The translations under genes and the position numbers were made by a program. The notes under the pieces are model-generated. The model had not been told where the DNA came from. It saw only the letters and a list, made by a program, of their open reading frames with translations, and made no database searches. A DNA stretch of 38,625 nt, taken from positions 1-38,625 of the forward strand of contig NZ_WEZF01000035.1 of NCBI RefSeq assembly GCF_009177065.1, in the 5' to 3' direction. Shown piece by piece: positions 5,259-29,975 of the stretch (position 1 is the stretch's first letter; every line of letters begins with the position of its first letter). The DNA is from Tautonia marina. Its GTDB lineage: Bacteria; Planctomycetota; Planctomycetia; Isosphaerales; Isosphaeraceae.

Positions 5259-5336
5259 ATCAGGAAACCAACCGGGCGGTACTCCTTGATTGGCAGGAGG
5301 ATTGCCGCGAAACGACCTGCGCTTGCGAGGGTTTCC

Positions 5337-5798: not shown

Positions 5799-5846
5799 GT
5801 CTCATGCTCCTCGCCTCGTCGAATTGTCAACGCCACGGAGATCGCA

Positions 5847-6620: not shown

Positions 6621-6625
6621 GTCGG

Positions 6626-6653
6626 TGTCGATTTCCAAAGCTCCCAATCGACC
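6626..6653 (+). promoter_or_regulatory. second candidate ECF42-dependent promoter
   Basis: TGTCGA (6626-6631), exactly 17 bases, then CGACC (6649-6653), 77 bases before the second VOC start. The spacing and both boxes are identical to the site at 5231, and the flanks TT after the first box and A after the second also match. The sequence between the boxes is unrelated, which argues for selection on the boxes rather than recent duplication. Confidence 0.65.
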
Positions 6654-6730
6654 ACCAAGGGACGCCAGCGAGACGGCAGGAGGGTCTGCCTTACGCCCGC
6701 CTCACGACGATCAAATTGGAGGGAGAATTC

Positions 6731-7159
6731 ATGACCAACGCCACTCTGACCCCGTACCTGTTCTTCTCCGGCCGATGCGAGGAGGCTCTCGAATTCTACC
6801 GCAAAGCCCTCGGGGCCGAGGTCGAGATGCTGATGCGGTTCGACGAGAGCCCCGAGTCCCCTCCGGCCGGAATGCTCCAGGACGGCTTTGAGAAGAAAGT
6901 CATGCACGCCTCATTTCGGGTCCTCGGCGCTTCGATCATGGCCTCCGACGGGTGCGACGACCAGTCGACATTCGACGGTTTCCGTCTGTCGATCACCTTG
7001 CCCACCGAGGATGCAGCCCGGAAAGCCTTCGATGCCCTGGCCGACGGTGGCAGCGTCCAGATGCCCCTCTCAGCAACTTTCTGGTCGCCGTGCTACGGGA
7101 TGGTGACCGACCGGTTCAATGTCGGCTGGATGGTCACCGTTGCCGGACCCACGAGCTGA
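6731..7159 (+). CDS. VOC superfamily protein (PhnB-like)
   Basis: 142 residues from ATG 6731, preceded by GGAGGGAGAATTC; the in-frame ATG at 6716 lies upstream of that ribosome site and is rejected. Sequence signs: LTPYLFFSGRCEEALEFYRK then ALGAEVEML, KVMHASFRVLGASIMASDG, and the C-terminal FWSPCYGMVTDRFNVGWMV typical of PhnB-like VOC proteins. These are usually dimeric with a metal or small-ligand cleft. It shares fold class but little identity with the VOC gene at 5337, so the two are not a recent duplication. Preceded by its own ECF42-like promoter. Confidence 0.9.
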   Translation: MTNATLTPYLFFSGRCEEALEFYRKALGAEVEMLMRFDESPESPPAGMLQDGFEKKVMHASFRVLGASIMASDGCDDQSTFDGFRLSITLPTEDAARKAFDALADGGSVQMPLSATFWSPCYGMVTDRFNVGWMVTVAGPTS

Positions 7160-7175
7160 CGCGAGTCGGAGCGCA

Positions 7176-7212
7176 CCGCCGCGGTCAGACCGCGGCGGCC
7201 TCTTGCAAGAGG
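7176..7212. terminator. adjacent hairpin and perfect palindrome between operon genes
   Basis: CCGCCGCGGT (7176-7185), loop CAG, ACCGCGGCGG (7189-7198) makes a perfect 10-bp stem. It is immediately followed by the 14-bp perfect palindrome CCTCTTGCAAGAGG (7199-7212). There is no T-tract. It may be a transcription-attenuating or RNA-stabilising structure between the VOC gene and the next YCII gene. The palindrome could alternatively be a protein site. Confidence 0.45.
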
Positions 7213-7252
7213 ATCAATGGCTGGAACACGACACACATTGAGGAACGATGCG

Positions 7253-7687
7253 ATGAAGGTCATGGTGATTGTCAAGGCGACAGATCACTCCGAGGCCGGA
7301 GCACTCCCGAGCGAAGAGCTGCTGGCAGCCATGGGCAGGTACAACGAGGAACTCGCGACGGCGGGAATCCTGCTCTCGGGAGAGGGCTTGAAACCGAGCG
7401 CCCAGGGGGTCCGCGTCCGGTTCAGTGGCGAGGGTCGCGAGGTGACCGATGGTCCCTTCGCCGAGACGAAGGAGTTGATCGCCGGCTTCTGGCTCTGGCA
7501 GGTGAAGTCAATGGACGAGGCCATTGCCTGGGTCAAGCGCTGCCCAAACCCGATGCCGGGCGATTCCGAGATCGAGATCCGCCCCGTCTTTGAGGCGGAC
7601 GACTTCGCGCCGAGCGATCCGACGGGAGAACTCCGGGCCGCGGAAGCTCGGCTCCAGGCCAGGCTGAACGAGCGGGCCTCCGTTTGA
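7253..7687 (+). CDS. YCII-related (DGPF) protein
   Basis: 144 residues from ATG 7253 (GAGG at about 7239); the upstream in-frame ATG at 7217 lacks a ribosome site. It contains MKVMVIVKATDHSE, TDGPFAETKELIAGFWLWQV and CPNPMPGDSEIEIRPVFE, the standard single-domain YCII/DGPF pattern. The DGPF signature lies at about residues 76-82. The C-terminal 25 residues (ELRAAEARLQARLNERAS) form a charged helix beyond the domain. Third gene class of the ECF42 locus. No separate ECF42 box precedes it, so it is probably read through from 6626. Biochemical role unknown for the whole family. Confidence 0.9.
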   Translation: MKVMVIVKATDHSEAGALPSEELLAAMGRYNEELATAGILLSGEGLKPSAQGVRVRFSGEGREVTDGPFAETKELIAGFWLWQVKSMDEAIAWVKRCPNPMPGDSEIEIRPVFEADDFAPSDPTGELRAAEARLQARLNERASV

Positions 7688-15146: not shown

Positions 15147-15942
15147 CGTTTCCCCTCTTGTGAGACCTCTGTCCAGTTCCTCGGAGACTCCGGGAGCCAT
15201 GAAGTCTGCCACGACACGATGACGGCTCGGTAGCCCTTCAACCAGATGAAACTCAGGCTCAAGGCTTCTTCGACCATCTTGACGCCTGGGGATCGCTGAT
15301 GACGAGGTCGCTCCGCTGTTCGATTCGCAAGCCCCCGCGAATGGCTGAGCGCGAGGCATGCGTCGGCCGCTGGTGACGCCTGGAGACGCGGGGAATTTTA
15401 ATGAAGAAATCGAGATGTTGAGAGGTCGATTTTGGAGTGATCCACACGCTCTTTGGAATCCAAATCTCTGAACCGTTTTCGACTCCAAGAATTTTTTTCA
15501 ATTAGGCTCTTGCGTTTGCTTATGAACGCAGTATCGTATCGCAAGGATCGGGATTGGAGTCGCAGTGAAGGCGATCCCAATCAAGATAACGTAATCCTGT
15601 AGTAGCAACGGGATTGAAATGACTCAACTGCTCGATCTCTCTCGACTGTTCTGATCGTACGGGATCGCCGCCTTCTTCTCCTGACCTTTTCAAGAGGTCG
15701 AACGACGAGAATCGACTCGTTGAACCTCTTGTGAGTTGCACCGACCAAACTGGTCCGGTTGGGTAGTACGTCTCATCAGTGATGCTGCATGATCGCTCGG
15801 GTTCGATGCCCGGAGTTTGGGGAGCGTCCGCCAGCACCGCACAGGGGCATGTAATTGCCTCGTGTGATTTCGATGATCGGCAAGATCGTTTCGGTGGGTT
15901 CCACAGAATCGTCCGCAAGATCCCAGTCGGGCCAGGAGAACC
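15147..15942. other. long intergenic region before the metabolic island
   Basis: 796 bases, less GC-rich than average (especially 15390-15640), with no convincing gene. Open frames on the minus strand give no known domain. It holds a sizeable inverted repeat at 15691-15731 (listed separately) and ends with AGGAGAACC before the AGE-family start. The operon promoter should be here, but no clear -35/-10 pair stands out. Confidence 0.5.
15691..15731. promoter_or_regulatory. imperfect inverted repeat upstream of the island
   Basis: CAAGAGGTCGAACGA (15691-15705) pairs with the 15717-15731 arm (13 of 15 positions, outer 8 perfect: CAAGAGGT/ACCTCTTG) around an 11-base loop. It lies 212 bases before the AGE-family gene. 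It may be a leader hairpin, a terminator in either direction or a protein site. No T-tract. Confidence 0.4.
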
Positions 15943-18120
15943 ATGAACCACTACGTTGCGTCTCGCACCGTCATGGGGGTCGTCGTGGACACGGTCGAGG
16001 AGGGGGCGCTCGACAAGGATCGGGACTGGTTCCGAATCCAGACCGCCAGTGGCGACGAATATGAAATCTTCATTTCAACCGAAACGTACTTCACCGTATT
16101 GACGAACATCGACGGACTCCCTCGCGACCGCGTGCCCAACCCCGAAGGGTACGACGAGAAACGACTCTCCCATCGAATCCACAAGTATGTGGTTCCCGAA
16201 TCACTGATCGTCGTGCTGGGGGTCGATCAGGATCACGACGGTCGGCGCCGATTTGACGCCCGAACCGTCTACCTGCTCGATTCGCACAGCCGTTCCGAGT
16301 CGTTCCAGTTCGAGACGGACGACTGGTGGCAGATCCAGATCCGAGAGCTGGCCAACGGCTGGCTCGACGCAATCTTCGGCGACCGTCGAGACTACTCCGA
16401 GGCCGACTTCGCCGAGCTCTACCGAACCAACCTGAACATCACCGGCATGCCGAAAGGCCCCAAAGTGCAGGAGATGGCGACACTCTCTCGCCTGATCTAC
16501 GGCCTCTCCTCGGCGTACCTGCTCACCGGACAGTCCCGGTTTCTGGCAGCGGCCTCGGCAGGGGTCCGCTACCAGCGCGAGGCGTTCCGCTTCCTCTGTC
16601 ACGGCGGCACGATGTGCATCTGGGCGTTCGGGCGGCAGGGCAGGGACGGCAACCTCACCAAGATCATTTACCCGTCGCAAAACGACGACGACAAGAACCA
16701 GTTCCCGCTCTACGAGCAGATTTACGCCCTGGCTGGCCTGGCCCAGTTCTTTCGCATCACCAACGATGCAACAGTGCTTTCCGATATCCGAGGGACGATT
16801 GAAGCGATCAATTACTTCTTTCTGAACCACGACGACCCGGAGGACCGTGGGTATTACTCGCACATCGACTACGTCGAGCGACGGCCCGATGCTCCAGTTC
16901 TGGGCGACAACCGCGGCAAGAAAAACTGGAACTCGATCGGCGATCACCTGCCGGCCTACCTGATTAATCTCCTGCTGGCCATCGACCCGCTTCCGCAACT
17001 CGTAGACGGGGGGCGGGCGGCAACTGAAGACCTCACCAAGCTGGTCAAGACCTGCCATGAGATGCTCCGCGAGACGAGTGAACTCATCGTCGAGAAGTTC
17101 CCGGCCCGAGAGCGCGATGGTCGTCCGAAGGAAGGGAGGGATGGCAGCGTCTTCGTTGACGAACGGTTCGAGAGCGACTGGACTCCCGACCACAATTGGC
17201 GCTGGCAGAAGAATCGAGGGATCGTTGGCCATAACCTGAAGATCGCCTGGAACCTCACCCGGGTGGCGAACTACCACCTGCAGCGGGAGGAATCGCAAGC
17301 GGCCCGTCGAGCGCTCGAGTTGGCCGAGCAGCTTGCAATGGACATGGCCGTTCACGGCCTGGACCGGCACCGGGGCGGCTGCTTCGACGCCGTCGAGCGG
17401 ATGCCGTCCAACGGAATGCCCTACGAGATCACCTGGATGCCGACGAAGGACTTCTGGCAGCAGGAGCAGGCGATTCTCGCCTACCTGATCCTCTACGGCG
17501 AGACCCACAACATTGAGTATCTCCAGAATGCTCGGGAAATGCAGGCGTTCTGGAATCTCTGGTTTCTCGACCGCGACCGCTGGGGAATCTACTTCCGCGT
17601 CACCGAGGATGGGCTCCCTTACATCGAAGGAATGTACGGAGACAAGGGAGGGCATTCCGTCTCCGGTTACCACAGCTTCGAACTCAACTTTCTTGCACAC
17701 ATCTACCTGAGATCTTACCTGTCCGACGACGAAAACACCGCCAACCGATTCAGCCTCTACTTCAAACCCTCCGCCGACGCGATCGGTCACACCATCAACG
17801 TGCTCCCTGACTTCTTCCCGCCCGGCAGCGTGGAGATCGAATCGGTAGCGGTCAACGGGGTGCCGAGGCACCTGAGCGAAGACGCCCGGGCGCGGTTCCA
17901 GATCCCCCTGGCCGACGGCGACCTTGGTCGTGAAGTTGCCGTCATCTTCCGATCCACCATCTCGAACTGGTGGTCCCGGCTCGAAGACCGCCGCGAGAAG
18001 TTCCGTCCCGAGAAATACCGAGGGCCGTCGGCCCCCAAGCGACGCTACACCCCTCCCGTCCTGAAGATGCCGAGTCGCTCCCAGGCTCAGGGGAAATTCA
18101 AGGAATCCGAGGTGTTCTGA
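15943..18120 (+). CDS. AGE-family (N-acylglucosamine 2-epimerase/cellobiose epimerase-like) alpha/alpha-barrel protein
   Basis: 725 residues, ATG 15943 after AGGAG. Residues about 1-150 are an unusual beta-rich N-terminal domain I do not recognise. The six-barrel follows from about 160: RLIYGLSSAYLLTG, then GIVGHNLKIAWNLTRVANYH (cf. AGE GHxxEwAWLL), HRGGCFDAVE, DFWQQEQAILAYLILYGE (cf. WWxQAE) and GGHSVSGYHSFEL carrying the conserved histidine of the active site. A beta segment from about 615 closes the protein. AGE enzymes epimerise or isomerise sugars at C2 using two histidines. At about 725 residues it is far longer than the usual 390-420, so substrate prediction is unsafe. No signal peptide. 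First gene of the eight-gene island. Confidence 0.82.
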   Translation: MNHYVASRTVMGVVVDTVEEGALDKDRDWFRIQTASGDEYEIFISTETYFTVLTNIDGLPRDRVPNPEGYDEKRLSHRIHKYVVPESLIVVLGVDQDHDGRRRFDARTVYLLDSHSRSESFQFETDDWWQIQIRELANGWLDAIFGDRRDYSEADFAELYRTNLNITGMPKGPKVQEMATLSRLIYGLSSAYLLTGQSRFLAAASAGVRYQREAFRFLCHGGTMCIWAFGRQGRDGNLTKIIYPSQNDDDKNQFPLYEQIYALAGLAQFFRITNDATVLSDIRGTIEAINYFFLNHDDPEDRGYYSHIDYVERRPDAPVLGDNRGKKNWNSIGDHLPAYLINLLLAIDPLPQLVDGGRAATEDLTKLVKTCHEMLRETSELIVEKFPARERDGRPKEGRDGSVFVDERFESDWTPDHNWRWQKNRGIVGHNLKIAWNLTRVANYHLQREESQAARRALELAEQLAMDMAVHGLDRHRGGCFDAVERMPSNGMPYEITWMPTKDFWQQEQAILAYLILYGETHNIEYLQNAREMQAFWNLWFLDRDRWGIYFRVTEDGLPYIEGMYGDKGGHSVSGYHSFELNFLAHIYLRSYLSDDENTANRFSLYFKPSADAIGHTINVLPDFFPPGSVEIESVAVNGVPRHLSEDARARFQIPLADGDLGREVAVIFRSTISNWWSRLEDRREKFRPEKYRGPSAPKRRYTPPVLKMPSRSQAQGKFKESEVF

Positions 18121-18202
18121 CATCGGGTGTGTCTCTCGGATCCGACACACCAGAACCGAAACCGGCCAGTCCTTCCTTAATGTCAAGATCCAGGGGGAAC
18201 TG

Positions 18203-19876
18203 ATGGACGATCAACCCTTGCGGGGGAAAAAAGTCGCGATCCTGGTCGAATCGGAGTACATCCCGAAGGAGCTTGAGGCGTACGAAACGCATCTGGGACG
18301 CCTCGGGGCCGAGGTCCACTTCCTCTCTCGGCTCTGGGGAAATGATCAGCTCTACATTATTAACGACATCGACCCGAACGGCGATCTGGTTTTCTCAGGC
18401 GGCACACCGGACATCGAGCAGACCGCCAAGAAGCTCCAGTTCCGCGAGGTTCGACTGGGGCTCCGCGAGCCGAACGACCCAGACGGCGTGGTCCGACCGC
18501 AAGTCTCCGACTACGCGGCCGTTCTGCTGGCAGCCAATTACGTGAGCGTTCGGCTCCGCTACTTCGAAGCGGGGGACCAGGCGATCACGCCCTCAATGGT
18601 CCGCGAGGCCCCCGCGGTGCGGTTCGTGGCTGCGGCCATGCGACACCCTCGGGTCGTCGTCGGGGCGCTCTGTCACGGACTCTGGCTGCTTACCCCTACC
18701 CCGGAACTCCTCGCCGGTCGCCGCGTGGTCTGCCACGAGGTGGTCCTCGCCGACATTCATAACGCCGGGGCTCAGTATGTCTCGCCAACCCCCGCAGATC
18801 GACAAAAGGACTTCAGCGCCTGGACTCCCGATCAGTCGATGCCCTCCGTCGTGGTGACCGACGGCGACCTTGTCACCGGACACTCCGCCCATGCCGTTGT
18901 CCCCTATGTCTATGCGGTTGCCCGAGCGGTCGAGGCGGTCGGCCACGTCACCCCGGCGGCGCCTTACACGCTTCCCCCGCCTCGGTCGCAAAACAATCAA
19001 CGAATCCTGACGCTCCTTTCCGAGCATGGATACTGGGGTGAGGAACTCGTCGGACCGATGGAGGTCTTCGCCGAACGGGGCTATGAGGTTGACTTCGCCA
19101 CCCCCAACGGTCGCCGTCCCCGCGCCCTGGCGCCGAGCATGGACCCCGACTACATCGACCCTCCTCTCGGAAGGTCCGTCACCTCTCCCGAGATGGCCGC
19201 CAAGGTTCGCCGCTGGGACAACGTCTCGGCCGACCGAAGTCCGGAATCGAAGCGGCTCGACACCCCGATCAGCCTCGCCGACTGGGTTCCTGAGCGCCCG
19301 TACTGGTCGTCTCCGCTGCTCGTTCGCGGCCTGGAGGCGTACCACCGAGAGCTGGACCGGCTTCGCCAGGAAATCGCCGACCGCTACGATGCGCTGCTCA
19401 TCGTCGGAGGGAGTGGACCGCTCGTCGATCTCGTCAACAATCAACGTGTTCACGACCTGATTCTCGCCTTCCTCGCCCTCGATCGTCCGATCGGTGCCGA
19501 GTGCTACGGCGTAACATGCCTCGCCTTCGCCCGCGACATGGAACACCGTCAGAGCATCCTCCGCAACAAGCGCGTCACGGGCCACTGCCTGGAGTACGAC
19601 TACAAGGACGGCACCGGCTTCGTCGATCCCTCGACCGTTGCCCAGCCCACGGCCGGCTTTATCCCGTTCAACATGGGGCCTCCTCCTTACCCGCTGGAGT
19701 ACATCCTCCGAGACGCGACCGCGCCGGACGGTGCCTTCATCGGCAACTTCGGCAAGGAGACTTCGGTGATCGTGGACTACCCCTTCATCACGGGCCGCTC
19801 CACTCCAGACTCCTACCTCACTGGCCAGAAGATGGTCGAGGTCCTCGAGGGTGGACTGAGGCGTTTCGGCTGGTGA
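18203..19876 (+). CDS. tandem DJ-1/PfpI (class I glutamine amidotransferase-like) protein
   Basis: 557 residues carrying two complete DJ-1/PfpI domains. Domain 1 (about 8-245) starts KKVAILVESEYIPKELEAYE and has the nucleophile elbow VVVGALCHGLWLL (C157, followed by His). Domain 2 (about 265-555) starts ILTLLSEHGYWGEELVGPME and has the elbow IGAECYGVTCLAF (C434, followed by Tyr). The families include glyoxalase III, deglycase-like proteins, isonitrile hydratase and proteases. The CH pair in domain 1 is compatible with catalysis, while domain 2 lacks the adjacent His. A role in handling reactive carbonyl intermediates of the neighbouring enzymes is plausible but inferred. 82 bp after the AGE gene and 22 bp before the ThDP enzyme. 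Confidence 0.85.
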   Translation: MDDQPLRGKKVAILVESEYIPKELEAYETHLGRLGAEVHFLSRLWGNDQLYIINDIDPNGDLVFSGGTPDIEQTAKKLQFREVRLGLREPNDPDGVVRPQVSDYAAVLLAANYVSVRLRYFEAGDQAITPSMVREAPAVRFVAAAMRHPRVVVGALCHGLWLLTPTPELLAGRRVVCHEVVLADIHNAGAQYVSPTPADRQKDFSAWTPDQSMPSVVVTDGDLVTGHSAHAVVPYVYAVARAVEAVGHVTPAAPYTLPPPRSQNNQRILTLLSEHGYWGEELVGPMEVFAERGYEVDFATPNGRRPRALAPSMDPDYIDPPLGRSVTSPEMAAKVRRWDNVSADRSPESKRLDTPISLADWVPERPYWSSPLLVRGLEAYHRELDRLRQEIADRYDALLIVGGSGPLVDLVNNQRVHDLILAFLALDRPIGAECYGVTCLAFARDMEHRQSILRNKRVTGHCLEYDYKDGTGFVDPSTVAQPTAGFIPFNMGPPPYPLEYILRDATAPDGAFIGNFGKETSVIVDYPFITGRSTPDSYLTGQKMVEVLEGGLRRFGW

Positions 19877-19898
19877 ACCACCTCTCGGAGGCCCACAG

Positions 19899-21557
19899 AT
19901 GGACGGCAATCACGCGATCCTTGAGCAGCTCATCGCCGACGGCTTCGAATTCATGTTCGGCCTCCCGGGGACCGAGGAGGAGGGCTTCCTCGATGCGCTG
20001 ACCGACTACCAGGATCGACTCAGGTACATCCTCTGCTATCAGGAGTCGGTGGCTGTGATGGCCGCCGACGGCTATGCCCGGGCGACCCGACACCCCTCTC
20101 TGGTCCAGATCCACAGCACCCCGGGACTGGCCAACGCCCTGGGGGCGATCTGGGAGGCGAAGAAGGGGAATGTCCCTCTGGTGGTCCTCGGCGGCAAGAC
20201 CGGCGTGAAGTATCTGCCGATGGAAGCCCACATGTCCGGCGACGTGGTCAACCTGGCTCGCCCGGTGACCAAGTGGGCCGGCATGGTCACCCACCCCGCC
20301 TCGACCCTGCGAATGCTCCGCCGGGCAATCCGGATTGCCTGCACCCCGCCTCGGGGACCGGTCTACCTCTGCCTACCGATGGACGTTCTCGACGCCGAGT
20401 CTGAGGAACAGGTTCGCCCGACGGTCATCCCCTCGACCCGAGTCGCCCCGGAGCCGGACTGGATTCATCGGGCGGCCGACATGCTCGCCGGCGCACGCGA
20501 GCCCCGCATCTTCATTGGTGACGGCGTGGTCGCCTCCGGTGCCGAGCAGGCCCTCCGGGCGGTCGCGGAACTCCTCGGAGCCCCCGTCTGGAGTGTGCAT
20601 CAAGGCGATATGGTACTCGATGGTGACGACCCGCTTTTTCAAGGGTTCACCGGCCGGATGTTCGGGACCGACAGCACCCCTCGGTTCCGCGAAGGAGACG
20701 TGAACTTCCTCTGCGGCACCTACGCCGTTCCCGAGGTCTTCCCGGAGCTTGGCCCGGTTTTCGCCGAAGGGTCCCGGGTCATCCACGTCGACCTCGACCC
20801 CGAAAACATCGGCAAGAACCACCCCCTTGATCTGGGCGCGGTGGCCGATCCCAGGCTTACCCTGGAGCATCTCGCCGAGGCCCTTGCCGCTCGCCTCGCC
20901 GGGCAAGACCGCAGCGCCGCCACCGAGCGGATCAGGACACTGGCGGAGGAGAAGGCCCGCCGCCGTCAGGAGGCCATCGACCGAGACGACTCTCTCTCTG
21001 GCGACGGCCTGATGCCATTCGCCGCCGTTGCCCGCGAGCTGGCAGCGCAACTGCCCGAGTCGGCGATGATCTTTGACGAGAGCCTGACCTGCTCACCTGC
21101 CCTCACTCGCTACCTGACTCCCCGGGCGGGCCGCTACTTCATCCCCCGAGGGGGCTGCCTGGGTATCGGTTTACCCAGCGCGATCGGGGCCGCGGCCGGC
21201 ATTACCGACCGGATGGTCGTCGGCCTCACCGGCGACGGCGGGGCGATGGAGGTCATCCAGTGCCTGGCCACCGCCGCTCGGTATCAGGTCCCCGCCAAGC
21301 TGATCGTGTGTAACAACCGGAGCTACAAGGTCTGCGAGTTCAACCTGATCCCGTACCGCCGCGACCGGGGGATCGACCTCAACCGTCCCCAGCCGGAGTT
21401 GTTCGATCTTTCCCGGCCCGACCTCAACTTCGCCATGCTGGCCGAGGGGCAGGGGGTGAAGGCCGCCCGTGTCGAGAACCCCGACGACATCGGGCCAAGG
21501 ATTCGAGAGATGATCGCGCATCCGGGACCGTTCCTGCTCGACGTCGTCGCCGGATGA
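19899..21557 (+). CDS. thiamine-diphosphate-dependent enzyme (acetolactate synthase/benzoylformate decarboxylase-like)
   Basis: 552 residues, full length for the family. The N-terminal PYR domain has LIADGFEFMFGLPGTEE and the cofactor-activating glutamate in ILCYQESVAVMAADGYAR (E49). The central domain ends near RVIHVDLDPENIG. The C-terminal PP domain has GDGG (445-448) followed after 24 residues by NN (472-473), the GDG-x24-NN ThDP/Mg motif. It should cleave or ligate a C-C bond next to a 2-oxo group (2-keto acid decarboxylase or carboligase). The FAD-binding and regulatory-subunit features of acetolactate synthase cannot be confirmed, and no ilvN is adjacent. It is the central enzyme of the island, 31 bp before the EthD-ankyrin gene. 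Substrate unknown. Confidence 0.9.
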   Translation: MDGNHAILEQLIADGFEFMFGLPGTEEEGFLDALTDYQDRLRYILCYQESVAVMAADGYARATRHPSLVQIHSTPGLANALGAIWEAKKGNVPLVVLGGKTGVKYLPMEAHMSGDVVNLARPVTKWAGMVTHPASTLRMLRRAIRIACTPPRGPVYLCLPMDVLDAESEEQVRPTVIPSTRVAPEPDWIHRAADMLAGAREPRIFIGDGVVASGAEQALRAVAELLGAPVWSVHQGDMVLDGDDPLFQGFTGRMFGTDSTPRFREGDVNFLCGTYAVPEVFPELGPVFAEGSRVIHVDLDPENIGKNHPLDLGAVADPRLTLEHLAEALAARLAGQDRSAATERIRTLAEEKARRRQEAIDRDDSLSGDGLMPFAAVARELAAQLPESAMIFDESLTCSPALTRYLTPRAGRYFIPRGGCLGIGLPSAIGAAAGITDRMVVGLTGDGGAMEVIQCLATAARYQVPAKLIVCNNRSYKVCEFNLIPYRRDRGIDLNRPQPELFDLSRPDLNFAMLAEGQGVKAARVENPDDIGPRIREMIAHPGPFLLDVVAG

Positions 21558-21588
21558 TCGGATCACCGACCCCGCCTGGAGCCTCGCC

Positions 21589-23364
21589 ATGATCCACCAG
21601 CTCATCTTCGCCCAACCCAAGCCGGGGATGACCGAAACGGACTTCCAGTCCTACTGGCTCAACGTCCATGCCCAGCGATTCGCCCGCCACATCCCCCAAA
21701 TCCGCCGCTACGCCATCAACGTGCGAACACCCATCGCCGGGCTCCCCCACGAACTTCCCGGCGGCTACAGCGTCGCCGAGATCTGGCTGGCCAACGACGA
21801 GGAGCAGCTCGCCTCACTCCAGTCCCCCGAGTTCCTCGAAGGGGCGCGACGCGATGAGCCCAGATGGGCCGCGTTCTGGGCCACCTTCGGCCTCGATACC
21901 GACCCCCAGACGCTCCTGGAGGGGCCGCCATTCGCGGCCGAGGACCCTCGCGTCAAGCTCCTCATCCTGCTGAAGCGACGGCCGGGCATGGAGGTTGATG
22001 AGTTCCGCCGAATCGCCTCCTCATCCCACGCCGATCTCGTCCGAGGAATCCCCGGCCTCCGCCACTATGTGCAGGGGACGGCCCGGGATGGTGCCTACGC
22101 AATCGGCGAACCTCGGTTCGACGCGGTCGAGCAGCTCTGGTTCGACGACGAGGCTTCGCTCCGCGCCGCGATCGAATCAGACCACTTTCGGCGGTCTTTC
22201 ACGACCAACGAAAATTCGCTTTTTGATGCTAGGCATTTGTTTGCCCTTGCGGCGCAGGCTCACTGGGTCATCGGACCCGAGTTCCGCGACCCCCTTCCGT
22301 CCCGTCCTGGAGGCGATCCGGTGCGGCTCTGTGAGGCCGTGTCCCGTGGCGATCACGACGCCATCCGCCGGGCCTTGACCCTGGGCGCGGACCCGAACGA
22401 ACGCGATGCCGACAGCGGACTGACAGCGCTGATGCTCGCTGCCGGTCGCGGCGACGAACCGGCGGTCCGGATGCTCCTGGACGGCGGTGCCGATGTCCAC
22501 ACCACCGACCCGAAGGGCGGCTGCACGGCGCTGCACAAGGCCTGCCAGGGCGGCAATCCTGGGGTCGCCCGCGCCTTGATCGAGGCCGGGGCCTTCGTCG
22601 ATGCCGTGGCTGTCACCACCGGCCATACCCCCCTCTGGGACGCCCTCTGGTACAAGTGGCCCGAGATCGTCGGAGTCTTGCTCCAACAGGGGGCCGGTCT
22701 GGGTCACAAGGCCGCGTATGGTTTCACCCTGGAACAACACATCACGTTTGAGGAAGACGTGAATCCTACCCCCGAGGCCCGCGAGAAATTCCGGCAGGCC
22801 CGCGAGCAGGTCGAGGCCCGCCGCCAATCCGACCAGGACACCGTGGTCCGGCAGCAACTGATGGCAGCCGTCGTCCGGAACGACCTTCCTTCCGTGCAAA
22901 AGCTCCTGGCTGGCGGAGCAAAAGTGGATGAGCGGTCGCCAAGGCTCAACGGGTTCAACGATCTGCACACCCCGTTGCTGGTGGCCTGCCGCGACGGTCA
23001 CTCAGAGATCGCCGCCGCCTTGATTCAGGCAGGCGCCGACGTCAACGCGGTCGAGCCCATCTTCGGTGCGGTCCCCTTGCACAAGGCAGTCTACAACGGC
23101 CACGCCGACATCACCGCCCTGCTCGCCGAGCAGCCGGACATTGACCTCGACTTCCAGGGCGCAACCAACGGATACACACCGCTTCATGATGCCCTCTGGC
23201 ACGGCTTCCGCGACTGTGCCCGCATCCTGATCGACGCCAACGCCCGCCTCGACCCCCGAGGCCACGATGGAAAGACACCCCTGGACATCGCGGTTGAGAC
23301 GTTCGGATCGGCCGACGAGCTGGTGGATCTGCTTCGGCAAAAGGGCGCCGAGCAACACGTGTAG
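21589..23364 (+). CDS. double EthD domain fused to ankyrin repeats
   Basis: 591 residues. Residues 1-110 (IHQLIFAQPKPGMTETDFQS, YWLNVHA) and about 125-235 (VKLLILLKRRPGMEVDEFRR, then SSHADLVRGIPGLRHYVQG) are two EthD-type dimeric ferredoxin-like domains in one chain. EthD proteins act beside oxygenases and in polyketide or ether degradation. From about 245 on come roughly nine ankyrin repeats (GLTALMLAAGRGDEPAVRML, GCTALHKACQGGNPGVARAL, HTPLLVACRDGHSEIAAALI, YTPLHDALWHGFRDCARILI and others), with a charged linker of about 50 residues after the third or fourth. The combination is unusual. The ankyrin half may hold partners from the same operon together. Same strand, 39 bp before the next gene. 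Confidence 0.88.
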   Translation: MIHQLIFAQPKPGMTETDFQSYWLNVHAQRFARHIPQIRRYAINVRTPIAGLPHELPGGYSVAEIWLANDEEQLASLQSPEFLEGARRDEPRWAAFWATFGLDTDPQTLLEGPPFAAEDPRVKLLILLKRRPGMEVDEFRRIASSSHADLVRGIPGLRHYVQGTARDGAYAIGEPRFDAVEQLWFDDEASLRAAIESDHFRRSFTTNENSLFDARHLFALAAQAHWVIGPEFRDPLPSRPGGDPVRLCEAVSRGDHDAIRRALTLGADPNERDADSGLTALMLAAGRGDEPAVRMLLDGGADVHTTDPKGGCTALHKACQGGNPGVARALIEAGAFVDAVAVTTGHTPLWDALWYKWPEIVGVLLQQGAGLGHKAAYGFTLEQHITFEEDVNPTPEAREKFRQAREQVEARRQSDQDTVVRQQLMAAVVRNDLPSVQKLLAGGAKVDERSPRLNGFNDLHTPLLVACRDGHSEIAAALIQAGADVNAVEPIFGAVPLHKAVYNGHADITALLAEQPDIDLDFQGATNGYTPLHDALWHGFRDCARILIDANARLDPRGHDGKTPLDIAVETFGSADELVDLLRQKGAEQHV

Positions 23365-23403
23365 CGAGACCAACACCGGAACGGCCCAAGGGGAGGGACG
23401 ACG

Positions 23404-23835
23404 ATGGAAAGCCCGACGACTCGCGAAGTGGCCGAGACCTGGTTCGAGGCGCTGACCACAGGCCAGATCGACCGCGCGATCGCCTGCCTTGCCGACGATG
23501 TGGAGTGGATCAACTACACTCCCGTCCCCGGCCTGAACGACATCATGCCCTGGATCGGCACGTATCACGGGGTCCAGGCGGTGATGGATTCCTTCCTCCT
23601 TTTCACCTCGCTCGTGCAGGTGAAACGCGAGGAACTCGTCCGCCTGGCCGTCGACGGTGAGAACGCCGCGGGCGTCATCTACGAGCTGTCCACGGTCAAG
23701 GAAACGGGCCTCGACTTCGAAATCGAATTCATCCAGTGGCTCACGATCCGAGGGGGCAAGATCGTCCGCTGGAAGTCCTACACCGACCCGTCCCCCATCA
23801 TCGTTGCCATGCGAGGGTCGTCGCCGTCCGCCTGA
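23404..23835 (+). CDS. NTF2/SnoaL-like protein
   Basis: 143 residues from ATG 23404, with GGGAGGGACG upstream. The cone-shaped NTF2-like fold is suggested by TREVAETWFEALTTGQIDRA, then CLADDVEWINYTPVPG, YHGVQAVMDSFLLF and the C-terminal FEIEFIQWLTIRGGKIVRWK. This is the classic SnoaL/ketosteroid-isomerase pattern in which the last strand carries R/K-W-x-x-Y. Such proteins act as isomerases, cyclases, dehydratases or ligand binders. A catalytic Asp cannot be assigned by eye. It sits in the run of small-barrel genes of the island. Confidence 0.82.
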   Translation: MESPTTREVAETWFEALTTGQIDRAIACLADDVEWINYTPVPGLNDIMPWIGTYHGVQAVMDSFLLFTSLVQVKREELVRLAVDGENAAGVIYELSTVKETGLDFEIEFIQWLTIRGGKIVRWKSYTDPSPIIVAMRGSSPSA

Positions 23836-23920
23836 ACCGGAAGGCCGGCGATCCGAACCCCGACCACCGTCGTTTGGGCCATCACCCGATCCGAGTGCCG
23901 TTCCCGAGGAGCCACCGGCC

Positions 23921-24220
23921 ATGCTGTTCTTCGTCCAGATGCGATGGAATATCGAGGGGCGATTATCCTTTGACGAGCTCTGGGAGCTGGAGGAGCAAGA
24001 GGCCGCGTGGGCCATGAGCGAAGGCCCCGAGGCTCAGCTCTGGAAGGTCGCCGGTCAAAAACGGGTCATCGGCGTGGTCCAGGTCGACTCGATCGAGGAG
24101 CTGGACCGGATCGTCATGGGACGATTGCCGATGCGTGAATATTTGGAGTTTGAGGCGATCTGGCCCCTCCGCGACTATCCCGGCTTCATCGAAGATGTTC
24201 AGCGTCGGTACAAGGTCTGA
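23921..24220 (+). CDS. muconolactone delta-isomerase-like small protein
   Basis: 99 residues from ATG 23921 with GAGGAG about 10 bases upstream; the open frame runs further upstream but shows no protein character. MLFFVQMRWNIEGRLSFDEL, ELEEQEAAWAMSEG and LPMREYLEFEAIWPLRDYP match the muconolactone isomerase fold and length (about 95). The family acts in the beta-ketoadipate pathway, but none of the other pathway genes are here. In this setting it is more likely a relative with an altered lactone or dicarbonyl substrate. 85 bp after the NTF2-like gene and 20 bp before the cupin. Confidence 0.8.
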   Translation: MLFFVQMRWNIEGRLSFDELWELEEQEAAWAMSEGPEAQLWKVAGQKRVIGVVQVDSIEELDRIVMGRLPMREYLEFEAIWPLRDYPGFIEDVQRRYKV

Positions 24221-24240
24221 CTGCGACTCCGGGAGGATGA

Positions 24241-24684
24241 ATGATGCGACGCGTCGTGACGGCCCTCACTCCAGGCGGAACCTCGTCCGTGATGATCGAC
24301 GGCCCCCCCGAGCCGCCGATTGCTCCGCCGGGCGCGCCGGGCCTGTCCTTCGTCAATCTCTGGGCCACGAGACCATCCCCGGGGCTTCCTGTCGATGACA
24401 GCGATGCCGCGCAGGGGATGCCGGTCCTTCCCGAGGCCGGGGGAACCTGCTTTCGCCTGATCCGCATCGAGCCCGGGCACGGCATGGACATGCACGCCAC
24501 CGACACCATCGACTATTTCGTCCTCCTCTCCGGAAGTATCACCCTGACCCTCGACGACGGCGCCGAGCTGGACCTGGGCCCGGGAGACTGCCTGGTGCAG
24601 GCCGGGGCCCGGCATGCCTGGCAGAATCGAGGAAATCACCCTTGCCTACTTGCCGCCGTCATCGTGGGAGCCGTCCGAAGCTGA
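24241..24684 (+). CDS. cupin-domain protein
   Basis: 147 residues; ATG 24241 or 24244, with GGGAGG placed better for the second. Cupin motif 1 is degenerate (GHGMDMHATDTIDYFVLLSG: one His, and Asp where Glu is usual). Motif 2 is normal (GDCLVQAGARHAWQN with the metal His). The protein is a compact single-domain cupin that may bind a divalent metal weakly or not at all. Preceded by a Pro/Gly-rich N-terminal 60 residues. It belongs to the run of small barrels between the ThDP enzyme and the GH13 enzyme. Confidence 0.85.
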   Translation: MMRRVVTALTPGGTSSVMIDGPPEPPIAPPGAPGLSFVNLWATRPSPGLPVDDSDAAQGMPVLPEAGGTCFRLIRIEPGHGMDMHATDTIDYFVLLSGSITLTLDDGAELDLGPGDCLVQAGARHAWQNRGNHPCLLAAVIVGAVRS

Positions 24685-24870
24685 CGTACGGAACGATGCT
24701 GTCGGCGTTGGAGAGAGTCAATCACAGGACGCCGATGCTCAGGCGGTTCCCGCTCGTGTGTGGTGGGCCAGCACTTGGGGAATGGCTCCAGGCCTCACAG
24801 GTGCCCGTCCCCAGTTTCGGCAGGGGCGATGCAGACAAGTGAACACCGCTCGAACCCAGGGCCGCGCGCC

Positions 24871-27453
24871 ATGATCACGGTTCCATTCGTTTATCAGACC
24901 GCCATCGCTCGCAACGACCTGTTCCGCAATCCTCGCCTCGTCGGGAGCTGGTCCAACGGCCGACACTCCGAGGACTGGTCCGAGTCTCCCATGCAGACTC
25001 GCCAGGGTGCTGATGGCTGCCCGGAGTTCGTCGCCTCGGTCCCGTTTCATCCGGATCAGGTGGGCCGAGCGTTTTCCTGGGGTGTCCGCGCGGATGGACC
25101 CGAGGGACCAGATCGTTGGCTCATCATGACCGAGGTCCGGGATCGGGCCTCCGATCATCGTGTAAGATCCTTCCGGCTTGAGTCGGACAGCGCGGAGCGT
25201 GAACAGGTCGATCGCCTCTCCGTCTCGCGCTGGCTGGGCGCCCAGAAACACCTTCACAACGGATCGGCGTTGTTGCGGTTCGCGGTCTGGGCCCCCAACG
25301 CCCAGGATGTTCAGGTCATCTTCGGCAAGACCTGGCACAAGGACGATCAACAGGCCGCCTCTCCCACGCCGCTGAACCCACCAGGCAGGGCAAACGCGCG
25401 CTCAGTTCCCTTCATCGACATCTTCGGCGGCTACATTGCCGACAACGAGCATGGCGCGCTCGAAGGCCATCCGGCCCTGCCGATGACCCGCCGGCCCGAT
25501 GGTGTCTGGGTCTCGGAAGTCTCCCCCTCCGAGGGACCCTTCTTCGAGGACTACGATCACCGCCCATACATGTTTCGCGTGGTTCGAGACGACGGCAGCG
25601 TCGTTTATCGCACCGATATCCACTCCCGCTGTCAGATCGGCGGCGGCACCTTCAATCCGAACGGTGCGCCCTACCACGAGCGCCCCCTCATCCTGGAAGG
25701 AACCCGAAGCTGCTCGGTCATCGTCGACCCCGACACGATCACCAGAGAGGACCAGATCTCAACCTCCCCCGAGCGGATCTGGCCCGAGCAGTTCGTCTCT
25801 GCCGACACCTTCTGGAACGGCCTGGAACGGCCCCGACGACGTGATCGATTGACCTACCCTGGGCGCGTCGAGGACCTGGTCATCTATGAGCTTCACATGG
25901 GGGCCCTGGGCTTCGGCCGCATCGACCCGTTCTCCGGCCAGCCGGCCCCCGGCACGCTTGATGACGCCGTCCGATTGCTCGACCACCTGGTCGATCTGGG
26001 GGTGAACGCCGTCGAACTGCTGCCCCTTTCGGAGTTCGGCGGCGGAGGCGCGAACTGGGGATACGCCACCAGCCACTATTACGCCATCGAGTACGCCGGT
26101 GGCGGGCGCGACAGCTTCAAGCACTTCATCCGCGAAGCCCACCGCCGGGGCCTCGCGGTCATCATGGATGTCGTCTACAACCACTACGTCCACGACGCCA
26201 ACCGGGCCCAGTGGATGTACGACACGACCCGCCACGACCGCAACTGCTACTACTGGTACGAAGGGGGCACGGGCGATGACCCCGCCTTCGATGCCGCCGT
26301 CGCTCCCGATCGCCGCGGCCAGGGCGGCTACGTCGATAATCTCTCGACCGGCTTCGCCCCACGCTACTACGAGGAGCTTGTTCGCAAGACGTTCATCTCC
26401 AGCGCCGTCGCTCTGGTCGAGGAGTTCCACATCGACGGCTTCCGCGTCGATCAAACCACTTCGATCCACGGCTACAATGTTCGGCATGCCGACGGCCGAC
26501 GGGTCGACGACGCCAACATCTTCGGCGCCAAGCTGCTCCGCGAGTTCGGCCGGACCCTCAAGGCCATTCGCCCCGACATCATCCTCATGGCCGAGGATCA
26601 CTCGGAATGGGACGCCCTGACCACCTCCCACGATCAGGGCGGCATGGGCTTCGACGCTCGCTGGTATGCCGACTTCTACCACCATTTGATCGGCGATACC
26701 GACAAGGGCTCCGACTACGCCAAGCTGCTCAAGGTCGCCGGCCTGGGCACCAACGAACCGCTGGCGATGGGCTACTTCGCCGGAGCGCTCGCCGCCAGCG
26801 GCACAAAACGCGTCGTCTATCACGAGTCGCACGATGAGGCCGGGAACGGCCACGGCACCGCCCGGACCCTCACCGTCGCCGTCAACGGCGCCCCGCTCAT
26901 CGGAGAAACCCGCCGCTGGGCAGAGCGGCGCGCCCGCTGCGTCTGCGGCCTCGCCATGCTCTCAGCCGGGACGCCCATGTTCCTCTTCGGTGAGGAGGTC
27001 GGCGCCAGCAAGCCATTCCTCTACAACGCCGTCCTCGAGAACCGCGAGGACCTGTTCGCCTTGCGCGATGGCCCGGGTGCTCACCTTTTTGCGTTCTACA
27101 CCGATCTGATCCGCCTTCGGCTCGACCCCGCGAACCCGGCGCTCCGGTCCCGACACATCAACGTCCTGCACTCCCACGACGTCAACCGCGTCCTCGCTTT
27201 CCATCGCGCATCCGACGGACAGGAGTTTCTCGTCATCGCCAACCTGAACGACCACCCGTTCGAGCAGGGCTATGCCATCGAGCACGGGGCGATCTCCAGC
27301 GGCGACTGGCGCGAGGTCTTCAACAGCGATTCCCAGAACTACGACGGTTGGAACGTCGGCAATTTCGGAGCCACCATCCCCAGCCCTCACGGCCGCTTCG
27401 AGGCAGTCCTTCCCGCCGCGGGGTTTGTCGTCTTCCAGAAGGAGAGCCCCTGA
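24871..27453 (+). CDS. GH13-family alpha-glucan enzyme with N-terminal CBM48-like domains (branching/trehalose-type)
   Basis: 860 residues from ATG 24871; an in-frame ATG at 24829 is possible but too close to its AGGGG. An N-terminal domain (1-100) of unclear fold is followed by a CBM48-like segment (LLRFAVWAPNAQDVQVIFGK, about 130-150). The (beta/alpha)8 barrel carries the four GH13 regions: DVVYNHY (I), FRVDQTTS with nucleophile D527 (II), ILMAEDHSEW with acid/base E575 (III) and YHESHDE with D655 (IV). The layout resembles glycogen branching or maltooligosyltrehalose trehalohydrolase enzymes more than plain amylases. No signal peptide, so it acts on cytoplasmic glucan. It lies 186 bp behind the cupin, so it might have its own promoter. 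Confidence 0.88.
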   Translation: MITVPFVYQTAIARNDLFRNPRLVGSWSNGRHSEDWSESPMQTRQGADGCPEFVASVPFHPDQVGRAFSWGVRADGPEGPDRWLIMTEVRDRASDHRVRSFRLESDSAEREQVDRLSVSRWLGAQKHLHNGSALLRFAVWAPNAQDVQVIFGKTWHKDDQQAASPTPLNPPGRANARSVPFIDIFGGYIADNEHGALEGHPALPMTRRPDGVWVSEVSPSEGPFFEDYDHRPYMFRVVRDDGSVVYRTDIHSRCQIGGGTFNPNGAPYHERPLILEGTRSCSVIVDPDTITREDQISTSPERIWPEQFVSADTFWNGLERPRRRDRLTYPGRVEDLVIYELHMGALGFGRIDPFSGQPAPGTLDDAVRLLDHLVDLGVNAVELLPLSEFGGGGANWGYATSHYYAIEYAGGGRDSFKHFIREAHRRGLAVIMDVVYNHYVHDANRAQWMYDTTRHDRNCYYWYEGGTGDDPAFDAAVAPDRRGQGGYVDNLSTGFAPRYYEELVRKTFISSAVALVEEFHIDGFRVDQTTSIHGYNVRHADGRRVDDANIFGAKLLREFGRTLKAIRPDIILMAEDHSEWDALTTSHDQGGMGFDARWYADFYHHLIGDTDKGSDYAKLLKVAGLGTNEPLAMGYFAGALAASGTKRVVYHESHDEAGNGHGTARTLTVAVNGAPLIGETRRWAERRARCVCGLAMLSAGTPMFLFGEEVGASKPFLYNAVLENREDLFALRDGPGAHLFAFYTDLIRLRLDPANPALRSRHINVLHSHDVNRVLAFHRASDGQEFLVIANLNDHPFEQGYAIEHGAISSGDWREVFNSDSQNYDGWNVGNFGATIPSPHGRFEAVLPAAGFVVFQKESP

Positions 27454-28300: not shown

Positions 28301-28366
28301 AGTAAACGGAGGTTGACATCGGAAGTCAACCACCCTATCGTTCCTTGGTCAACGGCGGTTGACATC
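28301..28366. promoter_or_regulatory. interleaved divergent promoters and TetR operators
   Basis: Plus strand: TTGACA (28313-28318), 17 bases, TATCGT (28336-28341). Minus strand: TTGACT (complement of 28324-28329), 17 bases, TTTACT (complement of 28301-28306). Palindrome GGTTGAC-N7-GTCAACC (28311-28331) covers both -35 boxes; a second, GTCAAC-N4-GTTGAC, lies at 28348-28363. The 16-base unit AACGG(A/C)GGTTGACATC occurs directly at 28305 and 28351. One regulator bound here would shut both transcripts. Confidence 0.72.
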
Positions 28367-28487: not shown

Positions 28488-29975
28488 ATGAGAGCGAACT
28501 ACCGACTGGCCGCCGGCCAGACGGCTCCGAAGGCCGGGATGATCACGGTCGCGGCCCTCGGCCTGCTTGCCGCCACCGGCTGCCGAGAGCCCGAATCCCA
28601 GGCCGCGCCGCCACCGCCTACGGTCGGAGTCGTCGAGGCCCGTCGCATGACCGTCCCGATCCTCTCCTCGCCGACCGGCACCACGCGGTCGTTGCGCGAG
28701 GTCGCCGTTCGGGCCCGTGTTCGGGGGTTCCTGACCGAGCAGCCGTTCGAGGAGGGCTCGTTCGTCGAGGAGGGGCAGCTCCTGTTCGTCATCGAGGAGG
28801 AGCCGTTCCAGGTCGCCCTGAAGTCGGCCGAGGCCCGGCGAGACGAGGCCGAGGCGGCCCTGAAGAAGGCCGAGGCGTCTCGGGCCCGCGAAATCGCCGA
28901 GGCGCAACTGGCGGTCGATCATGCCCAGCTTGAGCTGGCTCGGGTTGAGGAACGCCGCCAGCAGACCTTGATCTCCCGCAACGTCGCCACTCAGCAAGAG
29001 CTCGACGAGGCGATCGCTCGCCGCGAGAGTTACGCGGCACAAGTCGAGGCCGACCGGGCCCAGTTGGAGCAGGCTAAGGCCGATTATGATGTGAACATTC
29101 TTGCTGCACGAGCTCGCCTGAACGAGGCCGAGGCCGCCGTTCAGGCTGCCAAGCTGGACCTTGGCTACTGCCGGATGTTCGCCCCGATGAGTGGCCGGAT
29201 TGGTGAAGCCCGCGTTAAGGTCGGGAACCTTGTCGGACCGACGGCTCCTGGAGGCGCCGACAACACTGAGCTTGCCACCGTCCAGCAACTCGACCCGATG
29301 GGCGTCGACATCCGGGTCAGCTCCCGCTATCTCGAACGCTTCTCCCGGCTGATCGCCGAGGGCCTGGCCGTCCGGCTCACCCGGACTGGGCTCGAAGGTG
29401 AGCGGCCGTACCCCCACGAGGGTCGGGTCAACTTCTACGACAATCGCATCGACCCAAGTACCTCGACGTTCCTGGTCAAGGCCGAGGTGCCCAACCCCGA
29501 CGGTACGCTGCTGCCGGGTGAATACGTGAAGCTGGAAATGACCATCGACGTGCTGGAGGACGCAATCGTCGTTCCCGAGCAGGCCGTGGCCGAGACGCAG
29601 GCCGGGCCGGTCGTCTATCTGATCGACGACGACGGCACCGTGGCCATCCAGAGTGTCGAGGCCGCCCAGACCCACGATGGGATGCGCGTGGTCTCGGCCG
29701 GCCTTGAGCCCGGTCGCCAGGTCATCGTTGAAGGGCTGCAACTGGTCCGGCCCGGCATTCCGGTGAACGCCCAGCCGGCAAACCTCCCCGAACCGGTCCG
29801 TCCCGCTGCCGAAGACCGAACTCCGATCAGGCTGCCCGATGCCGAGGTCCCACCCGTCGACGAGACAACGGCCGATGCCGACGCTCGGGGCTCCGATCAG
29901 TCCGCCCAGGGACACTTGACGACCCCGGACGACCAGCCGAACGACTCTCGACTCGAGTCCGAGCCGGCTCCCTGA
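28488..29975 (+). CDS. RND efflux periplasmic adaptor (membrane fusion protein)
   Basis: 495 residues. The N-terminus is a hydrophobic signal ending AATGC (C32), so it may be a lipoprotein, although the box is weak (Ala at -3). Family elements follow in order: beta-barrel and lipoyl halves (VAVRARVRGFLTEQPFEEGS, FVEEGQLLFVIEE), a long coiled-coil hairpin of about 100 residues (EAEAALKKAEASRAREIAEA onward to EQAKADYDVNILAARARLNE), then LDLGYCRMFAPMSGRIGEAR and LLPGEYVKLEM. The last 60 residues are an acidic, Pro-rich tail beyond the family's usual end. It bridges the inner-membrane pump to an outer-membrane channel. 60 bp before the pump gene. Confidence 0.95.
   Translation: MRANYRLAAGQTAPKAGMITVAALGLLAATGCREPESQAAPPPPTVGVVEARRMTVPILSSPTGTTRSLREVAVRARVRGFLTEQPFEEGSFVEEGQLLFVIEEEPFQVALKSAEARRDEAEAALKKAEASRAREIAEAQLAVDHAQLELARVEERRQQTLISRNVATQQELDEAIARRESYAAQVEADRAQLEQAKADYDVNILAARARLNEAEAAVQAAKLDLGYCRMFAPMSGRIGEARVKVGNLVGPTAPGGADNTELATVQQLDPMGVDIRVSSRYLERFSRLIAEGLAVRLTRTGLEGERPYPHEGRVNFYDNRIDPSTSTFLVKAEVPNPDGTLLPGEYVKLEMTIDVLEDAIVVPEQAVAETQAGPVVYLIDDDGTVAIQSVEAAQTHDGMRVVSAGLEPGRQVIVEGLQLVRPGIPVNAQPANLPEPVRPAAEDRTPIRLPDAEVPPVDETTADADARGSDQSAQGHLTTPDDQPNDSRLESEPAP

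Follow-up and report, generated by a model that had tools for sequence, protein, structure and literature searches.

A gene island of Tautonia marina carries a co-inherited AGE, DJ-1 and ThDP gene set and resembles the cyanobacterial icfG operon

The planctomycete Tautonia marina carries eight closely spaced genes at positions 15943 to 27453 of contig NZ_WEZF01000035.1 (assembly GCF_009177065.1; "the window" below is the whole contig stretch of 38,625 nucleotides). Their combination raises the question of whether they form a functional unit and, if so, what that unit does. Our analysis inclines, by a modest degree, towards the reading that the island is the planctomycete copy of a widespread metabolic unit that runs one sugar-carbonyl pathway and is a regulator-free cousin of the icfG operon. 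The core of the unit consists of an AGE barrel protein, two DJ-1 domains (DJ-1a and DJ-1b) and a thiamine diphosphate (ThDP)-dependent enzyme, accompanied by an alpha-glucan GH13 enzyme, and it is present once per genome where counted. An earlier note, made from the sequence alone, knew of no described pathway with these genes, and we likewise found no description of the set in the open-licence literature searched. The eight genes are:

15943..18120, plus strand: AGE-type (alpha/alpha)6 barrel protein of 725 amino acids (Pfam GlcNAc_2-epim, 8.8e-09; AlphaFold2 model)
18203..19876, plus strand: fused tandem DJ-1 protein, DJ-1a and DJ-1b (Pfam DJ-1_PfpI and ThiJ_like)
19899..21557, plus strand: ThDP enzyme of the benzoylformate decarboxylase/acetolactate synthase superfamily (Pfam TPP_enzyme N/M/C)
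21589..23364, plus strand: EthD-EthD-ankyrin protein (Pfam)
23404..23835, plus strand: SnoaL/NTF2-like protein (Pfam SnoaL_2, 1.4e-11)
23921..24220, plus strand: MIase-like protein (muconolactone isomerase family) of 99 amino acids (Pfam MIase, 4.2e-11 on a longer open reading frame from 23657)
24241..24684, plus strand: Cupin_2 protein, outside the conserved set (Pfam)
24760..27453, plus strand: GH13 alpha-glucan enzyme, branching enzyme/trehalohydrolase-like, of a cluster-specific subtype (Pfam Alpha-amylase)

All eight open reading frames (ORFs) are open at or near these coordinates. The intergenic gaps measure 82, 22, 31, 39, 85 and 20 bp from the first gene to the cupin, and the gap between the cupin and GH13 is 75 bp, or 186 bp if GH13 begins at ATG 24871, as it may. 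Every family call lies above the curated Pfam cut-off (GlcNAc_2-epim; DJ-1_PfpI and ThiJ_like; TPP_enzyme N/M/C; EthD in two stretches with ankyrin; SnoaL_2; MIase; Cupin_2; Alpha-amylase). The ORF check and Pfam thus bear out the layout described earlier, with eight genes on one strand, separated by 20–85 bp as far as the cupin. For the MIase gene, ATG 23921 is the most likely start, not GTG 23657, because a Nostoc relative aligns from residue 1 there with 66% identity. No island protein reached an equivalog model of NCBIfam at its cut-off, and therefore none of the genes has a ready functional name; the sole NCBIfam match above cut-off was the EthD subfamily model TIGR02118 (56.2 bits, cut-off 30.5).

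The conservation of the set was analyzed by aligning DJ-1b against one genome per species, which gave 385 pattern matches and 351 relatives. Among the best 80 of the 351 relatives are sequences from actinomycetes, cyanobacteria, myxobacteria, desulfobacteria, alphaproteobacteria, a magnetococcus, a gammaproteobacterial symbiont and two planctomycetes. In a tblastn search of plasmids, 22 records had DJ-1 relatives, with identities of at least 50% in 14; we read eight plasmid regions, from Nostoc (2), Streptomyces (3), Deinococcus, Runella and Gemmobacter. DJ-1b is followed by the ThDP gene in all eight, and AGE or EthD is annotated in seven; the eighth, from Nostoc (C052), has NTF2, VOC and GlgX instead. 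The best 80 and the eight plasmid loci make up the 88 loci counted below, which exclude the window and one partial locus, L003. DJ-1b is present in 88/88 by construction, and each stretch extends at most 10–12 kb to either side and is often cut by contig ends.

Within reach of DJ-1b we found DJ-1a in 84 loci, ThDP in 78, NTF2-like in 45, hypNTF and GMC in 44 each, VOC in 42, AGE in 39, GlgE in 33, EthD in 31 and window-like GH13 in 29. GlgX (18), STAS (16), ankyrin (15) and MIase (9) were rarer. The ThDP gene lies directly beside DJ-1b on the same strand in 77 of the loci; the corresponding gap in the window is 22 bp. Control genes taken from beside the island were practically missing, with two loci for an RND pump, one for its adaptor and none for norB, the YCII-like or the sigma-like gene. 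Clustering of the recurrent neighbours and Pfam identified two more, an SDR and a GH63/MGH1-like glucosidase. Thus, the core genes recur together across phyla, and the outcome that would have spoken against the earlier note, no conservation in other genomes, was not seen.

Part of the apparent rarity of AGE in these counts stems from the 10 kb limit. In 23 genomes with DJ-1b, chosen to include many without a nearby AGE, AGE was found exactly once at 1e-40 in every genome. In 19 of 20 genomes checked, AGE lies on a contig equal in length to that of DJ-1b, hence on the DJ-1b contig, the genome of L042 being the exception; for 14 of the 20, a single stretch shows both genes. Of the remaining three, L021 has AGE within the cluster; in L053 and L086, AGE would by its coordinates overlap DJ-1b and is inferred to lie on another contig. 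Among 121 Streptomyces genomes, DJ-1b, AGE and the close ThDP type were found in the same 20, with one match each, and none of them in the other 101 (Fisher p 2.8e-23, kinship ignored). The centre genome (L013) had been picked for having the set, and the ThDP limit of 1e-160 was chosen after weaker relatives had been seen. Two of the 20 ThDP matches are partial, with about 331 of 561 positions, and 18 of the 20 genomes have AGE and DJ-1b on one contig, no more than about 21 kb apart. Some ThDP matches carry a "1 TGA" mark, thought from match lengths alone to be the terminal stop. Across 198 genomes of the same phylum, DJ-1b or AGE was found at 1e-60 only in the centre genome, and four others have a weaker ThDP relative (about 1e-132 to 1e-136). 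In 146 cyanobacteria, AGE was present in 13, DJ-1b in 5 and both in 4, the centre genome included (p 1.9e-4). Together with DJ-1a in 84/88 and ThDP in 78/88 loci around DJ-1b, the identical Streptomyces lists uphold the claim that the set acts as a unit.

The set was found in eight phyla (Planctomycetota, Actinomycetota, Cyanobacteriota, Pseudomonadota, Myxococcota, Thermodesulfobacteriota, Deinococcota and Bacteroidota), on chromosomes and on plasmids. It is rare close to the window. Of 45 genomes of the order, 43, among them the three others of the genus, gave no match to the tandem DJ-1 protein at 1e-20, and the two that matched were the window's own genome and one partial case. In a phylum sample, a match at 1e-40 occurred only in the window's genome (1/246). 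In a DJ-1b tree of 89 rows, the window stands alone near an unresolved base, with myxobacteria nearest by path, and the three planctomycete rows (window, L024 and L053) lie apart. The tree and the plasmid copies in several phyla fit horizontal spread and prove no single transfer. In a genome of the same family, a DJ-1a piece and a C-terminal piece of AGE lie close together on opposite strands (L003:1477-3351); the arrangement resembles what decay or rearrangement of the set would leave behind, or else an error of assembly.

What the data show are the gene content, the conservation and co-inheritance of the genes, their fusions, the folds predicted for the proteins and the residues that these keep. 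In the AGE protein, an additional N-terminal beta domain (residues ~1-111; 15943-16275) precedes the barrel, and a C-terminal beta stretch (~602-671) follows it. The AlphaFold2 model is good (pLDDT 82.9, pTM 0.87), and sugar isomerases and 2-epimerases rank first in both Foldseek and VIA. With VIA, the best fit was D-mannose isomerase 5x32 (Z 34.4, root-mean-square deviation (rmsd) 2.4, 380 residues aligned), next to cellobiose 2-epimerases (Z ~33) and a glucose-2-epimerase (Z ~32). The best fits span residues ~110 to 603. The N-terminal domain precedes the range covered by the 24 best structure matches, of the AGE family, and by eye the AGE of the icfG-type locus L155 has a similar N-terminal start. 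An extra C-terminal domain was also considered, and was dropped because YihS-type matches extend to ~679. All 21 sequences compared share H430, H577, W505 and E508, and we take H430 and H577 to be the catalytic His. The protein thus combines the (alpha/alpha)6 barrel (VIA, model residues 110-590) and the two conserved His of the AGE superfamily. AprG, which has an AGE fold and is titled a transaldolase, scores lower (Z ~23.6) and suggests that the AGE fold is capable of C-C chemistry.

The tandem DJ-1 protein contains DJ-1a (residues ~1-250) with Glu16, Cys157 and His158, and DJ-1b (~263-557) with Cys434 followed by Tyr435, invariant in 13 sequences. Its model is only fair (pLDDT 74.0, pTM 0.54). 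The best Foldseek match was Arabidopsis DJ-1d, a plant protein that also has two DJ-1 domains per chain; the poor whole-chain fit (TM ~0.27, rmsd ~22) indicates that the domains are alike and does not support a like arrangement. Besides the window, 14 loci have DJ-1a and DJ-1b in a single frame-checked ORF, some with over-extended starts (e.g. L055); in the Nostoc plasmids the two are separate genes. In four clear actinomycete cases (L064, L070, L072 and L079), DJ-1a is fused to AGE; a similar ORF of 1498 amino acids in L088 was left out of the count, as its N-terminus looks out of frame. Apparent EthD/MIase (L021), DJ-1b/ThDP and DJ-1a/GlgE (Streptomyces) fusions were dropped after the frame check. 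The domains of the set fuse and re-split, as DJ-1a/DJ-1b, DJ-1a/AGE, EthD/ankyrin and SnoaL/ankyrin.

For the ThDP enzyme, the best PDB match was benzoylformate decarboxylase 6a50 (6.6e-54). Residues E49 and H72 align with a Glu and a His of 6a50 and are invariant in 14 sequences; presumably they are the active-site Glu and the first active-site His. Benzoylformate decarboxylase has a second active-site His, which in this alignment was seen in neither the window enzyme nor 6a50. The protein scored below the equivalog cut-offs both for benzoylformate decarboxylase (NF005485; 267.6 bits, cut-off 493) and for acetolactate synthase (TIGR00118; 249.8 bits, cut-off 538.35). Two variants of the ThDP neighbourhood were noted. 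Rhodoplanes and Rhodovulum loci (L046, L048, L055, L083 and L059) contain AGE, a fused DJ-1, EthD and the window-type GH13 and no ThDP within the stretch, and the Streptomyces loci L026, L029, L034 and L037 have a second ThDP match upstream of DJ-1b.

A Nostoc edaphicum plasmid encodes counterparts of the EthD and ankyrin parts of the window protein in two separate proteins, with identities of 50% and 57%. One of these covers two window genes, with SnoaL at residues 1-141 (29%) and the ankyrin part at 142-479; the window instead joins this ankyrin part to EthD and encodes SnoaL in the following gene. An N-terminal SnoaL above cut-off was present in five of the seven ankyrin proteins scanned (L005, from Nostoc, and also L012, L084, L068 and L053), below cut-off in L028 and absent in L021. 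All nine loci with MIase also have both EthD and ankyrin, and EthD and hypNTF are almost mutually exclusive (both in 1 of the 88 loci, EthD alone in 30, hypNTF alone in 43, neither in 14). Based on the re-fusions, the company of MIase and this near-exclusion, EthD/ankyrin/SnoaL/MIase looks like an exchangeable module, replaced elsewhere by an NTF2-like/GMC/VOC module. The MIase-like protein scored 28.2 bits with the muconolactone isomerase equivalog TIGR03221 (cut-off 130.6). The cupin was found in none of the 88 other loci and seems to be a bystander, not part of the conserved set. Of the four small barrel families placed in the unit by the earlier note, EthD (with ankyrin), SnoaL and MIase therefore stay, as an exchangeable module, and the cupin does not.

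The GH13 protein matches GlgB and TreZ in the PDB and keeps the motifs DVVYNH, GFRVD, AEDH and HESHDE, which we take to be the catalytic ones. It is no GlgX-type debranching enzyme, being 27% identical to a GlgX over 455 columns. By eye, its subtype is common to the window and 11 other loci. The term "window-like GH13" is applied loosely here: among the 24 such proteins long enough to align, 11 have the window motifs and 13 resemble ordinary branching enzymes. The glucan enzyme proposed to accompany the set was a common neighbour, an alpha-glucan enzyme being present in 67/88 loci, a count without a baseline for its frequency elsewhere.

Two of the loci closest to the window illustrate its rearrangements. 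Plasmid pNe_3 of Nostoc edaphicum (NZ_CP054695.1) has DJ-1a, DJ-1b, ThDP, EthD, SnoaL-ankyrin and MIase in one row, with the EthD, ankyrin and MIase identities given above. It differs from the window in that DJ-1a and DJ-1b are separate, as is EthD, SnoaL is fused to ankyrin, and neither AGE nor a window-type GH13 occurs within the 19.5 kb read. Desulfarculus sp. L021 has AGE, fused DJ-1a/DJ-1b, EthD, MIase, ankyrin, ThDP and the window-type GH13 on one strand; unlike in the window, ThDP follows the ankyrin gene, EthD and ankyrin are separate, and there is no SnoaL match and no cupin.

A relation that the earlier note missed, while it read the island as a unit correctly, is that to the icfG operon of Synechocystis PCC 6803 (slr1852-slr1862). 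There, slr1854-slr1861 follow the order DJ-1, AGE, STAS and GlgX, with slr1854 as the DJ-1a gene, and we tested this layout in other cyanobacteria. In cyanobacteria without DJ-1b, all eight AGE loci read have DJ-1a, AGE, STAS, GlgX and STAS in this order on one strand, with an RsbW-like kinase in seven and a SpoIIE-like phosphatase in six; G325, a further such genome in which AGE is split in two, is left out. L162, from a genome with DJ-1b elsewhere, has DJ-1a, AGE, STAS, kinase and phosphatase and no GlgX. The AGE of L155, without a Pfam match at 0.001, was recognised by the AGE alignment at ~1e-227. Just upstream of its icfG-type operon, L155 encodes a 745-amino-acid EthD-SnoaL-SnoaL protein (L155:4888-7125) and a VOC protein, types that also accompany the window set or its relatives; by eye, L154 has a similar long protein upstream. 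In the DJ-1b loci L058, L085 and L008, a single stretch contains the DJ-1b/ThDP set together with the AGE/STAS/GlgX part, which suggests that the two are one system.

The pair of AGE beside DJ-1a is found at 15943-19876 in the window and in L154-L162. The island has the chassis of the icfG operon in common, namely DJ-1a, AGE, an alpha-glucan GH13 and EthD/SnoaL barrels, with DJ-1a next to AGE and all on one strand. It differs in that the switch of STAS antagonists, SpoIIE-type phosphatase and RsbW-type kinase was lost or never present (tblastn with one reference each gave no match at 1e-4 in the 38.6 kb window), and in that DJ-1b and ThDP, as well as ankyrin and MIase, are additional. Moreover, its GH13 is GlgB/TreZ-like and not GlgX, and its DJ-1a is only ~30% identical. 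The window thus looks like a relative of the icfG operon, not a member. The literature describes slr1852-1862 as one salt-repressed operon that includes the GlcNAc 2-epimerase Slr1855, Slr1856, GlgX and IcfG (PMC8670252), and the icfG operon in connection with a carbon-status switch (cited in PMC12329169).

Third-position GC was 0.77-0.86 in the island genes, close to the 0.80-0.88 of three flanking genes. A simple scan for sigma-70-type promoters, a weak test, gave one match at 28313, outside the island, and none inside; terminator-like sites, an equally weak test, numbered 7 against 8.0 in shuffles, so that one transcript is neither shown nor excluded. Among the direct repeats found, no pair flanks the island as a mobile-element boundary. 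ARAGORN called a tRNA-Thr (anticodon AGT) just upstream, at 15745-15821, which is probably a false call; a tRNA attachment site is not claimed, since Rfam gave no tRNA match there at the gathering score. At 1e-60, the three other genomes of the genus gave no match to the adjoining RND efflux adaptor (28488-29975), so that the strain-specific stretch may extend beyond the island. At 5286-7687, the translations show, by eye, several small VOC/YCII-like proteins in a row next to a sigma-factor-like gene; as far as seen, they are unrelated to the island. An anti-phage role was rejected, as PADLOC on five island proteins returned only ankyrin-type and GlgB matches.

In the pathway that we propose, every substrate, the order of reactions and the product are inferred. 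GH13 would remodel or trim glycogen or maltodextrin, and the AGE barrel would isomerise or epimerise the released aldose at C2. The two DJ-1 domains, on one chain, would handle a reactive intermediate of the 2-oxoaldehyde type in the manner of glyoxalase III, and the ThDP enzyme would cleave, decarboxylate or ligate the resulting 2-oxo compound. The EthD, SnoaL and MIase proteins might then bind or isomerise the product, with the ankyrin repeats holding the module together. The dicarbonyl or lactone product suggested in the earlier note gained no support from the analysis. Tentatively, and with some more doubt than confidence, we suggest that the set encodes an undescribed side route of central carbon metabolism, which leads from alpha-glucan by way of a sugar isomerised at C2 and then a 2-oxoaldehyde to a product of the ThDP enzyme, and that the icfG operon is a regulated version without ThDP whose role in glucose tolerance would derive from this chemistry.

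Several observations weigh against the reading of the island as a unit with one pathway. ThDP is out of reach in 10/88 loci; five of these were shortened by contig ends, and the other five (four Rhodoplanes loci, L046, L048, L055 and L083, and L070) hold about 10 kb on each side, so ThDP is not always needed locally. AGE lies more than 10 kb from DJ-1b in many loci, and the fifth cyanobacterium with DJ-1b (G392, L163) has DJ-1b, ThDP and GMC and no AGE at 1e-60. Many loci are close kin, in particular from Streptomyces and Nostoc, so that the 88 loci represent far fewer independent events. Eight of the counted loci supplied several of the reference proteins, and for families absent from the window the references were taken from six plasmid loci, each of which matches its own sequence. 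The alpha-glucan count, besides its missing baseline, pools GlgB, GlgE, GlgX and MalQ with the window-type GH13, and the DJ-1b tree gives the window no firm placement.

These points have to be set against three other explanations. A chance neighbourhood of unrelated genes would be conceivable in that the families are individually common and the cupin looks like a bystander of this kind; the recurrence across phyla, the identical presence lists and the fusions refute it for AGE, DJ-1a, DJ-1b and ThDP and make it unlikely for EthD, ankyrin, SnoaL, MIase and GH13, and for the island as a whole we regard it as extremely improbable. A small secondary-metabolite pathway, in which ThDP joins sugar-derived carbonyl units, EthD, SnoaL and MIase cyclise or isomerise them and other versions use the GMC oxidase and VOC, is consistent with the presence of the set in Streptomyces, Nostoc and myxobacteria, and the exchange of EthD for hypNTF is as expected of tailoring steps. 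The frequent partners of the set, however, are alpha-glucan enzymes, joined in the sister operon by carbon-status regulators, and we consider this explanation unlikely.

The genes might instead control stress or damage while glycogen is mobilised, the DJ-1 pair removing methylglyoxal or deglycating proteins and the others protecting or binding, with no dedicated product. The Glu/Cys/His set of DJ-1a and the match to DJ-1d agree with this, as does slr1854, which is listed as a general stress protein with a transcript that rises under butanol (PMC3726282). However, the slr1852-1862 operon is repressed and not induced by salt (PMC8670252), and a strain that produces ethanol has less of the Slr1854 protein (PMC4526308). 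DJ-1b, moreover, has Tyr and not His after Cys, and detoxification needs neither a dedicated ThDP C-C enzyme nor an AGE isomerase, yet both are strictly co-inherited. We find this explanation rather doubtful, and on balance prefer a metabolic unit with one sugar-carbonyl pathway.

If the preferred reading is true, a whole pathway has been overlooked even though its genes are annotated singly, with three core genes strictly co-inherited in one Streptomyces sample. It would also give the icfG operon a metabolic meaning, and the function would be open to metabolomics and enzyme assays.

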